DNA of 49,311 nt. Origin: an uncultured Methanobrevibacter sp. GTDB taxonomy: Archaea > Methanobacteriota > Methanobacteria > Methanobacteriales > Methanobacteriaceae. The DNA lies in contig CACXWH010000031.1 of the NCBI GenBank assembly GCA_902771225.1, forward strand, positions 1-49,311, written 5' to 3'. Every line of letters begins with the position of its first letter. Position 1 is the first letter of the stretch. The notes beneath the pieces are model-generated. The model was not told the DNA's origin. It ran no database searches and saw nothing but the letters and a program-made list of their open reading frames with translations. Below, in pieces: positions 9,032-33,298 of this stretch. The translations under genes and the position numbers were made by a program.

Positions 9032-9367
9032 TTAAATATTTTTATTTAAAACTTTAATTCCTAACTCAGATGCTTTATCTAACATCATAAGTTTTTTTCT
9101 TTTACCAATAGAAGCACTGATTCTTGCAGCTTCAGTTTCTGGGTTTAAAGCTTCTAATTCTTTCATATTGTGAACAAGAACATCATTATAACCAGAAGGA
9201 TGTAAATTCCTTATAGCTCTAGGGGTTCTGTAACCAATAGCAGGCATGTCTGGTTTTCCTGCTTCATATCTTCTCATTTTACTAGTTTTACCTCTAGGGC
9301 GTCTCCATTTTATTCCAAGTTTTTTATAACGAGCATATTCTTGTCTTTTAAATCTTTTATTAGCCAT
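9032..9367 (-). CDS. rpl32e: Ribosomal protein L32e
   Basis: ATG 9367 (MANKRFKRQEYARYKK) follows GGTGAT. The 111-residue basic protein matches archaeal/eukaryotic L32e, with the core GIKWRRPRGKTSKMRRYEAG and the PAIGYRTPRAIRNLHPSG segment. It lies between L6 and L19e, its normal position. The 12 bases before it still hold the end of the disrupted L6 reading frame. Confidence 0.94.
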   Translation of the reverse strand: MANKRFKRQEYARYKKLGIKWRRPRGKTSKMRRYEAGKPDMPAIGYRTPRAIRNLHPSGYNDVLVHNMKELEALNPETEAARISASIGKRKKLMMLDKASELGIKVLNKNI

Positions 9368-9379
9368 AATAATCACCAA

Positions 9380-9771
9380 TTATTCTTTGCTAGTTAAGTA
9401 TATTCCATCTATCTTGGGTGTCTTTCCCCGAGGAAATTATCTATAGATACGATATCTTTTTCGACTTTTACAGTCATTGGAAAGTGAGCAAATACAATTT
9501 TCATATGATATTCAAAACCATCAGTAACACCAGTAATCATATTGTTAATGTGTGCTTTAGTGGTTCCAATCATTGCTTTATCTTTCTTTTTAGGAAATGC
9601 TGTTTCTAATACAACATTATCTTCATCTTTTTTAATACTTACATTAGGATAAGTAAATTTTCTGGAATCTTCTCCATTAGGTCCTTTTACAGTGACCATA
9701 TTATTTTCAATTATAACTTCGACGCCTTCAGGGATTTCAATTTCTTCCCTTATAGCTGCAGCTACTACCAT
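9380..9771 (-). pseudogene. rpl6: Ribosomal protein L6, shortened by an internal deletion
   Basis: Residues 1-120 are a normal archaeal L6 ([19 protein letters not shown] through NFLGERHPR), then TAG stops the frame at 9411-9409. Archaeal L6 is normally about 175-180 residues. Immediately after the stop, another frame reads DGIYLTSKE and ends with TAA at 9382-9380, which is the expected L6 C-terminus. So roughly 45-50 codons between GERHPR and DGIY are missing, with a frame change at the join. L6 stabilises the factor-binding region of the large subunit and has one copy, so loss of half of its second domain is surprising. An assembly or sequencing deletion is a real alternative. Confidence 0.8.
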
Positions 9772-9779
9772 TTTATCAC

Positions 9780-10172
9780 CTAATACATGTAAACCAACAA
9801 ACGTCCACCAATTCCTCTTTCTTTAGCCTCATAGTGAGTCATAATTCCTTCAGGAGTTGTGACGATTAAAATACCAAAGTTCTTTGCTGGCAAATATCTT
9901 TTCTCAAATTTCTCAAATTCATCTTTCTTTACAGCGTGACGAGGTTTGATAACACCACACTTGTTAATGTTACCTAATAATTCAACAGTGAATTTTCCTG
10001 CTCTATTGTCATCGATGTATTCAAAGTTACCAATATAATTCTCTTTTTGCATTGTGCTTAAAACTTCACCTATTAATTTTGAAGCTGGAGAAATAACACA
10101 AGAATCATTTACTTGTAATTCGTTATTTCTAATATTAGTTAAAGCATCTGCAAGAGGATCCATAAGACTCAT
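9780..10172 (-). CDS. rps8: Ribosomal protein S8
   Basis: The 130-residue protein binds the central domain of 16S rRNA. The N-terminal [15 protein letters not shown] and the C-terminal [20 protein letters not shown] are diagnostic. The neighbours are S14 upstream and L6 downstream. Confidence 0.96.
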
Positions 10173-13604: not shown

Positions 13605-14390
13605 TTAACTATCATCTTCTTCTACTTCTTCAGTAGCTTCTTCTTCGACAACTTCTTCCACAACTTCTTCTACAACTTCTTCTAATTCCTCTAAATCTTC
13701 GATTTCTTCGACGACTTCTTCCTCTTCGATGATTACTTCAGTTTCAATATCGATTTCTTCTTCAATAACTTCACCATCTTCTTCTTCGATGATCATTTTA
13801 GGAGGAAGAATTTCAACGGAATCAGGTAAGACAGTTTCTGGAGGCATAATTCTTACATAAATACCTAATACACCAGGTTTTAATTGAACAGTTGCAAAAC
13901 CTTCTTCAACTAATCTGATTGAAGGTTCACCACATTTTTTAATGTATCCTTCAACGAATTTAGCTACAGCAGATCTTGAACCTCTGATTTTACCAGAAAT
14001 AGTAACTTCCACACCTTGAGCTCCTGCTCCCATAATTCTACGAATAGTGGAATAAGCAACTCTTCTGAAGTGCATACCTCTTTGTAACATGTTAGCTATT
14101 TTATAAGCCATGATTTTAGGGTTAAGTTCAGGAACAGCAACTTCTTTAACTTCAATTTGAGGATTATCTAATCCAAATTCGTTTTTAAGAGTATTGGTGA
14201 TGGACCTGACATTTTTTCCACCTCTACCAATAACCATACCTGGTCTTTCAGCATAAACAATAACCATAGTACCTAAAGGTGTAATTTGAACATCCATACC
14301 TCCGTATCCTGCTCTTTCAAGTTCTTTTTCTAAGTATTCGTCAATTCTGGTTCTTCTAAGGCCCTCTGTGACAAAATCTTTTTCTATCAT
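13605..14390 (-). CDS. rps3: Ribosomal protein S3 with a long acidic C-terminal tail
   Basis: Residues 1 to about 195 are a normal S3 with the KH loop GRGG at 55-58 and the mRNA-channel domain after it. About 62 residues at the end, from roughly 200, are almost entirely Glu, Asp, Val and Ile, with EEVVEE-type repeats. Such tails are known in some methanogen S3 proteins, but the function is unclear. The start ATG shares a base with the L22 stop (TAATG), suggesting coupling. Confidence 0.95.
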   Translation of the reverse strand: MIEKDFVTEGLRRTRIDEYLEKELERAGYGGMDVQITPLGTMVIVYAERPGMVIGRGGKNVRSITNTLKNEFGLDNPQIEVKEVAVPELNPKIMAYKIANMLQRGMHFRRVAYSTIRRIMGAGAQGVEVTISGKIRGSRSAVAKFVEGYIKKCGEPSIRLVEEGFATVQLKPGVLGIYVRIMPPETVLPDSVEILPPKMIIEEEDGEVIEEEIDIETEVIIEEEEVVEEIEDLEELEEVVEEVVEEVVEEEATEEVEEDDS

Positions 14391-20176: not shown

Positions 20177-21624
20177 ATGTTTGAAAAAGTATTAATTGCA
20201 AACAGAGGAGAAATAGCTATCAGAGTTATGAGGGCTTGTCGTGAGCTTGATATAAAAAGTGTGGCAGTATACTCTGATGCAGATAAAACCTCCCTTTATA
20301 CAAATTATGCAGATGAAAATTATCCTTTAGGTAACCCTTCTCCTGCTAAATCTTACTTAAATATTGAAAAAATAATCGATATTGCTCTTGAATCTGGAGC
20401 AGATGCAATTCATCCAGGATACGGATTTTTAGCAGAGAACCCTAAATTCGGAGAAGAATGTGAAAAAAATGGAATAAAACTTATAGGACCTAGTGGAAAA
20501 GTTATCCACGAAATGGGAGATAAAATCACATCTAAAGCTTTGATGAAAAAAGCTGGCGTACCAGTTATTGAAGGAACTCCTGAGGGTGTAGTTGAGATTG
20601 AAGAAGCAAAAGAAATAGCCAGACAAATCGGATATCCAGTAATTGTAAAAGCTTCTGCTGGAGGTGGAGGTATTGGTATGCGTGCAGTTTATGAAGAAGA
20701 AGAACTCGTGCGTGCAATCGAATCCACACAATCTGTTGCAGCTACAAACTTCGGAGATTCGACTGTATTTATCGAAAAATACCTTGAAAAACCAAGACAT
20801 ATCGAATTCCAACTTTTAGCTGATGAACATGGAAATGTTATTCATGTAGCAGACAGAGAATGCTCTATTCAAAGAAGACACCAAAAACTACTTGAAGAAG
20901 CACCTTCTCCAATTATGACCGAAGAATTAAGGGAAGAAATGGGAGGAAGTGCAGTTAAAGCTGCAGAATATATTGGATATACTAGTGCAGGTACTGTGGA
21001 ATTCCTATATGATAATGGAAACTACTATTTCCTGGAGATGAATACACGTATTCAAGTAGAACACCCAATTACAGAACTTGTTACAAATACAGACTTAATC
21101 AAAGAACAAATTAAAATTGCGGCAGGCGAAGAATTAAGTTATGCTCAGGAAGATATTCAAGTAACCGGCCATGCAATTGAATGTCGTATTAATGCAGAAG
21201 ATCCGCTTAATGATTTTTCACCAAATCCCGGTAAAATCACAGGTTACAGATCTCCCGGAGGACCTGGTGTGCGTTTAGATAGTGGAGTCTATATGAATTA
21301 TACAATCCCAACATTTTATGACTCTATGATTTCTAAATTAATCACTTATGGAAGAAATCGTGACGATGCGGTGTAAAAACCACCATTCCATTCCATAAAG
21401 CTATTTTAAGAAACCCTAATTTCATTAGTGGAAACTTAAACACACACTTCATTGATACCTATAAAAAAGGTATCGAACTAGAAATGAATAATATAATAGC
21501 TGAAGATGTGGAATATGTAAACAGACTTAAATCAACATTCATGCCGGGTAAGAAGATAGCTGCAATTTCAGCTGCAGTTGGTTCTTATCAAAATGCTGCT
21601 AAAGCTCATATGACTAAAAAATAA
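20177..21624 (+). pseudogene. pycA: Pyruvate carboxylase subunit A (biotin carboxylase), frame broken by a short internal deletion
   Basis: The start is ATG 20177 ([16 protein letters not shown]) behind GAGGT. The ATP-grasp biotin carboxylase core is intact: Lys 158 with the Gly-rich loop AGGGG (161-165), the [13 protein letters not shown] segment, and ExNxRxQVEHP (E287, N289, R291). After RDDAV a TAA appears at 21374-21376. Another frame from 21370 continues [20 protein letters not shown] to AKAHMTKK and TAA at 21622-21624, the normal C-terminus. About 13-16 codons that usually link the two parts are absent. With PycB it makes oxaloacetate from pyruvate for assimilation. birA follows at once. 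A real mutation and an assembly error both remain possible. Confidence 0.85.
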
Positions 21625-23686: not shown

Positions 23687-23726
23687 TCATACATCATCCA
23701 ATTCGAATTTCATGTCCGCAAAAGCT

Positions 23727-23978
23727 TCAAGGAATGGTTTCTTCTTCAGGTTCTTCATAGGAATATTCTGCATCAAGGACTTTTCCTTCAGGAGTAACCC
23801 AAATCATTATACTATCACTAACAGTATCACTTTTTTTAGTTGGTGGGAAAAATATTTCAAATGAAGTTCCTAATTGAGAGAAAAATTTTTCTTTTTCTTC
23901 TTCACTTTTATTGCACTTTTTAATTTTTCTAATTCTTGATTTTAATCTTTTTTCAGCAAGTTCATTTATATCTGACAT
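23727..23978 (-). CDS. Small conserved-looking hypothetical protein
   Basis: ATG 23978 (MSDINELAEKRLKSR) follows GAGGAG by 9 bases, giving 83 residues. The N-terminal half is a basic helix (RLKSRIRKIKKCNKSEEEKEK) and the C-terminal half may be a short beta segment (SIMIWVTPEGKVLDAEYSYEE). I do not recognise the family. It lies between the PLP enzyme and the fumarase subunit, on the same strand. Confidence 0.7.
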   Translation of the reverse strand: MSDINELAEKRLKSRIRKIKKCNKSEEEKEKFFSQLGTSFEIFFPPTKKSDTVSDSIMIWVTPEGKVLDAEYSYEEPEEETIP

Positions 23979-24615: not shown

Positions 24616-24664
24616 TTATATTATATAAGTTTAGATTTAATATTATTTATAGTAGTGATTAATT
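24616..24664 (+). promoter_or_regulatory. Promoter of the DUF2070 gene
   Basis: TTATATAAG at 24621-24629 is a clear TATA box about 36-44 bases before ATG 24665. A GTGAT ribosome binding site lies at 24655-24659. Confidence 0.45.
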
Positions 24665-33261: not shown

Positions 33262-33298
33262 TATTAGCTATTAAAAAAAAAAGAAAAAAAGAAGTTAA
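33262..33298 (-). terminator. T-rich terminator of the surface-protein gene
   Basis: On the minus strand the stop codon is followed by TTCTTTTTTTCTTTTTTTTT, a strong T tract typical of archaeal intrinsic termination. Confidence 0.5.

Follow-up and report, generated by a model that had tools for sequence, protein, structure and literature searches.

Ribosomal protein L6 (uL6) is universal. Its intact archaeal form is described by the family models TIGR03653 and NF004037 and is encoded, for example, in G014 (one contig, 2.54 Mb), which is the closest genome by L6 among those compared. The L6 gene described here, from an uncultured Methanobrevibacter sp., agrees with this intact form in its ordinary residues 1-120 and in having identical gene neighbours, but differs from it in that residues 121-168 are absent and the final nine residues are out of frame. 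Shortened forms of the protein have been described in bacteria. The Discussion of one article (PMC12572303) reports C-terminally truncated uL6 (rplF) in aminoglycoside-resistant bacteria, refers for such variants to Escherichia coli (Buckel et al., 1977) and Pseudomonas aeruginosa (Halfon et al., 2019), and states that rplF mutations or deletions are often linked to defects in ribosome assembly and growth. As far as they are described there, these variants resemble the present case in that L6 is shortened C-terminally, whereas they come from drug-resistant bacteria and the present case comes from one archaeal assembly and is known from sequence alone. Judged by title, no paper on an archaeal uL6 truncation was found.

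The window, i.e., the whole stretch of DNA that was analysed, comprises 49,311 nucleotides and corresponds to the entire contig C31 of a genome of 2.36 Mb in 122 contigs, whose completeness is rated 99.88%. The open reading frame (ORF) for L6 occupies positions 9409..9771 on the minus strand and encodes 120 amino acids, in which the first Ribosomal_L6 domain is complete and a second one begins; in the ORF listing its translation terminates in NFLGERHPR. An out-of-frame remnant of the 3' end of the gene (9380..9409, minus strand), coding for DGIYLTSKE followed by a stop codon in the -1 frame, starts directly at the deletion junction, which lies between positions 9410 and 9411 and at which the coding strand reads CCAAGAT and then AGATGG. 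Including the stop codon, the gene measures 537 bp in G014 and 392 bp here, and the alignment of the two contains a single large gap with a net loss of 145 bp, which is not a multiple of three and breaks the frame. The 120 residues that remain are 98% identical to those of G014. An earlier note on this DNA had described an L6 that stops at residue 120 and is followed at once by DGIYLTSKE in another frame, and had estimated the loss at 45-50 codons or 140-150 bp; ORF coordinates, translation and the alignment with G014 bear out the description, and the measured loss falls within the estimate. The internal gap in the L6 gene of this assembly is thus confirmed.

Searches with protein family models agree with this picture. 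PF00347 matches residues 13-85 in one stretch with 77.1 bits (cut-off 27), so that the first domain is present, and the second Ribosomal_L6 domain was not detected, the model finding one stretch here and two in the intact L6 of G014. The cut-offs of the full-protein models are missed by both TIGR03653 (162.5 bits against a cut-off of 185.4, with positions 1-113 of 170 matched) and NF004037 (167.5 against 184). The window contains no N at all, the gap in L6 having been closed without any. Neither of two conceivable ways of decoding past the break would restore the domain, since a -1 frameshift adds one residue before DGIYLTSKE and readthrough of the TAG stop codon ends four codons later.

The surroundings of the gene are those expected for L6. 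A ribosomal protein operon, for which the gene names other than L6 are our own reading, spans about 18.1 kb to 6.3 kb on the minus strand, and the neighbours of L6 and their order match those in G014. Both the downstream gene (9032..9367, minus strand), which we take to be L32e, and the upstream gene (9780..10172, minus strand), presumably S8, are intact, of full length and 98% identical to their counterparts in G014. Among ORFs of 60 or more residues, the size range taken into the comparison with G014 and one that leaves out a 50-residue ORF we take to be S14-like, no gap or frame change was found in the remaining ribosomal protein genes of the window. One match to G014, for a gene that we read as S4e-like, contains a stop codon, which is positioned upstream of the start codon used here. 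At position 13648, a 24-bp insertion relative to G014 is located in the acidic C-terminal tail of a 261-residue ORF (13605-14390) that is presumably S3-like.

If the break at the present locus were real, the protein might still be made from a second, complete gene elsewhere in the genome; this idea, which the earlier note had also raised, found no support when the genome was searched with the family model, with the missing C-terminal part and at the DNA level, and the second copy was rejected. The whole assembly holds one PF00347 match, the sole L6, and the note's reading of L6 as a single-copy gene with an internal deletion therefore holds for the assembly. The missing C-terminal part, used as a protein query, left no trace in the assembly (best match E 0.73, 36% over 28 residues). 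At the DNA level, a query spanning the gap detected only the L6 locus besides weak short matches, the next best having an E value of 0.0065 over 25 bases. Furthermore, the single-contig genomes of the genus (G011, G014, G043, and G044) carry one L6 match apiece. Completeness is rated 99.88% and the 122 contigs leave gaps able to hide a copy, yet a second, complete L6 gene is extremely improbable.

Across the genus, an L6 match is present in 38 of 67 genomes, this one included. Apart from the present genome, 37 have a match; in 33 of them, all 178 residues are encoded in one frame, and in the remaining four the gene is cut at contig ends: G016 loses its last three residues in this way, in G018 and G050 the gene starts mid-way at a contig end, and in G051 it is divided into two pieces, both of them located at contig ends. 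In these 37 genomes L6 is never interrupted within a contig, and the 25-mer that spans the junction occurs in only this one of the 67 genus genomes. No L6 match was obtained for 29 of the 67 genomes, among them seven of the 37 with a completeness rating of 90% or more and a contamination rating of 5% or less; of the 15 genomes G001-G015, eight yielded L6 and all 15 yielded PycA, a biotin carboxylase discussed below. Since L6 is universal, the genomes without a match have most likely lost the gene from the assembly. Contig ends also accumulate near L6, ten falling within the 850 bases around it and eight within the remaining 5.55 kb of flanks of 30 loci (28 of 55 matched loci, namely those from the genus that match most closely, plus two further ones), a count that may be biased in that all 30 loci were found through L6. 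The L6 locus is therefore easily lost or broken when genomes of relatives are assembled, as judged from the 29 of 67 genomes without a match and the clustered contig ends, and L6 makes a poor marker gene for assemblies of this kind.

Contig C31 contains two further clean gaps. The gene for a biotin carboxylase resembling pyruvate carboxylase subunit A (PycA; 20177..21621, plus strand), assigned to its family from the intact protein of G014 with NF006406 as the best NCBIfam model, lacks 43 bp between positions 21369 and 21370, and its frame is broken. This is the only internal break of PycA among 25 genomes; in the other 24, the gene is in one piece in 23 and split over two contigs in G012. The other gap concerns an ORF that has 109 codons in G014, where its intact protein gave no Pfam or NCBIfam match; here, this ORF corresponds to 23693..23978 on the minus strand and lacks 38 bp at about 23739, again with a broken frame. 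The other 15 genus genomes searched give matches of at least 107 residues, so that the sole break is that of the present genome, and nine genomes outside the genus gave five weak matches and four times none. Clean gaps within 14.3 kb in three unrelated genes, all of them intact in relatives, are difficult to account for biologically. About 1 kb of G014, with a 224-codon ORF, is also absent here at 24649-24659, as is about 420 bp at 33274-33276, each with a sharp alignment border, and these absences may reflect genuine differences from G014 or additional gaps.

To what extent contig C31 stands out from the rest of the genome can be judged from a comparison of G014 genes (1.26 Mb of G014) with 0.81 Mb of this genome, the window included, which gave 200 testable query rows. 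Clean frame-breaking gaps were found in 3 of 51 tested genes of the window and in 3 of 149 rows elsewhere, a higher proportion in the window than in other contigs that does not reach significance (Fisher P 0.17). The three rows elsewhere stem from one gene counted twice, because G014 has two copies of it, and from a very long gene with a gap of about 14 bp. Altogether, 11 of the 200 rows were flagged, three in the window and eight elsewhere. The latter comprise two rows for the twice-counted gene, which is located in contig C10, has a gap of 116 bp and presumably codes for a transposase-like protein; a 2400-codon G014 gene whose match in C28, at about 42,694, shows a frame change and the loss of about 14 bp; a gene with small indels in C17 that we take to be transporter-like; a frame change of one base in C9; and partial matches without a clean gap in C6 (one) and C8 (two, one of them covering 230 of 429 residues). 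In the reverse control, in which ORFs of this genome were compared with G014, 2 of 198 were flagged, one in C5 and the other being the very long gene of C28. A smaller first comparison had flagged 6 of 78, all in the window, three of which showed only a stop inside the match; these three were not counted in the 200-row comparison, as the stop is close to the match end.

The sizes of contigs C1-C41 drop mostly in order, the longest falling subsequence including 27 of 41 contigs as compared to a maximum of 16 in 2000 shuffles. Contigs that are out of order are mostly longer, and C31 exceeds its in-order neighbours by about 22 kb, which suggests that it was extended by later joining after a first assembly. 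However, frequent gaps were not encountered in other possibly joined contigs: nine of the 13 other out-of-order contigs were sampled (C18 and C25 in part, two contigs without a testable gene, C6 only for its first 20 kb, and C29, C30, and C40 left out), and 98 tested genes in these nine contained one clean gap, the 14-bp gap of C28. Contig joining as such therefore does not explain the gaps.

Two readings of the L6 gap have to be weighed against each other. If the deletion were real, the strain would make an L6 of 120 residues, with the first domain kept and nearly all of the second absent, and its ribosomes would run without the C-terminal domain of the protein, perhaps slowly. The clean junction, the good conservation of the N-terminal 120 residues and the lack of a significant excess of gaps in C31 over other contigs are all consistent with such a deletion, and truncated uL6 has the precedent that PMC12572303 reports for aminoglycoside-resistant bacteria. 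However, these known truncations come from drug-resistant bacteria, L6 is not broken within a contig in any of the 37 further genus genomes that have a match, and C31 carries two more unrelated frame-breaking gaps, so that we consider a real deletion very unlikely. A ribosome with half an L6, which the earlier note had named as the consequence of a true loss, is likewise unlikely in view of the two other gaps on the contig and of the frequency with which the locus is lost or cut in assemblies from the genus, and a true biological loss is not supported. In contrast, an error of genome assembly, and not a property of the organism, is the most probable source of the 145-bp gap, an explanation in which we have high confidence. 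In this genus, assemblies frequently lack or split the L6 locus, presumably as a result of near-identical DNA in many species; co-occurring species could tangle the assembly graph at L6, and the two sides of the gap would have been abutted here with the middle omitted. The organism itself would in that case possess a normal, complete L6. That the contig was misjoined at L6, that shared sequence was the cause and that a metagenome was the source are three points which we infer. Broken or lost conserved genes are known from draft and metagenome assemblies, and the absence of L6 or its truncation at contig ends in many relatives is of this kind, whereas the gap described here was closed without Ns and resembles a real deletion.

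Sharing of sequence between species is indeed pronounced at the deleted stretch, the 25-mers of which are common to 8.6 of 35 loci on average as compared to 3.0 over the surrounding 5 kb, and the most shared 120-base stretch in this region overlaps the deletion at its 3' end, as seen in the direction of the gene. Part of this contrast arises because the upstream flank is reached by fewer loci (20-22 of 28, versus 27 of 28 at L6). The 20-base downstream flank of the gap, as it reads here, is shared exactly with only 4 of 36 loci, and the gaps in PycA and in the 109-codon ORF sit in DNA that is little shared between species. Shared k-mers thus fit the L6 gap but do not explain the gaps of 43 bp and 38 bp. 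A chimera between distant species is not visible, as both flanks are nearest to G014 and to the RGIG7892 genome, with no switch between them. Relatives possess CCAAGA near both ends of the deleted stretch, but simple recombination at this microhomology was rejected, as the product found here keeps an extra AGAT; the microhomology does not separate a real deletion from an artefact. A search for 16S, as a clue to origin from an isolate or a metagenome, gave no match in this genome, although only 4 of 41 genomes gave any and single-contig relatives, G011 among them, also gave none. No literature was found that links chimeric assembly with ribosomal protein genes in Methanobrevibacter.

For the use of draft genomes, the case means that ribosomal protein genes in crowded genera may appear truncated without any N or contig end to indicate it, and that a completeness score does not expose such a gap, the present genome being rated 99.88% complete in spite of it. 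It is very improbable that a methanogenic archaeon lives in nature with a single L6 that lacks nearly the whole second domain. If the deletion were real, it would add a new archaeal example to a type of truncation already known and would not represent a new kind of ribosome, and it would mean that an archaeal ribosome tolerates the loss of the C-terminal domain of L6. Archaeal ribosomes would then work without a part of L6 for which contacts with the incoming tRNA and with EF-G are reported in bacteria.
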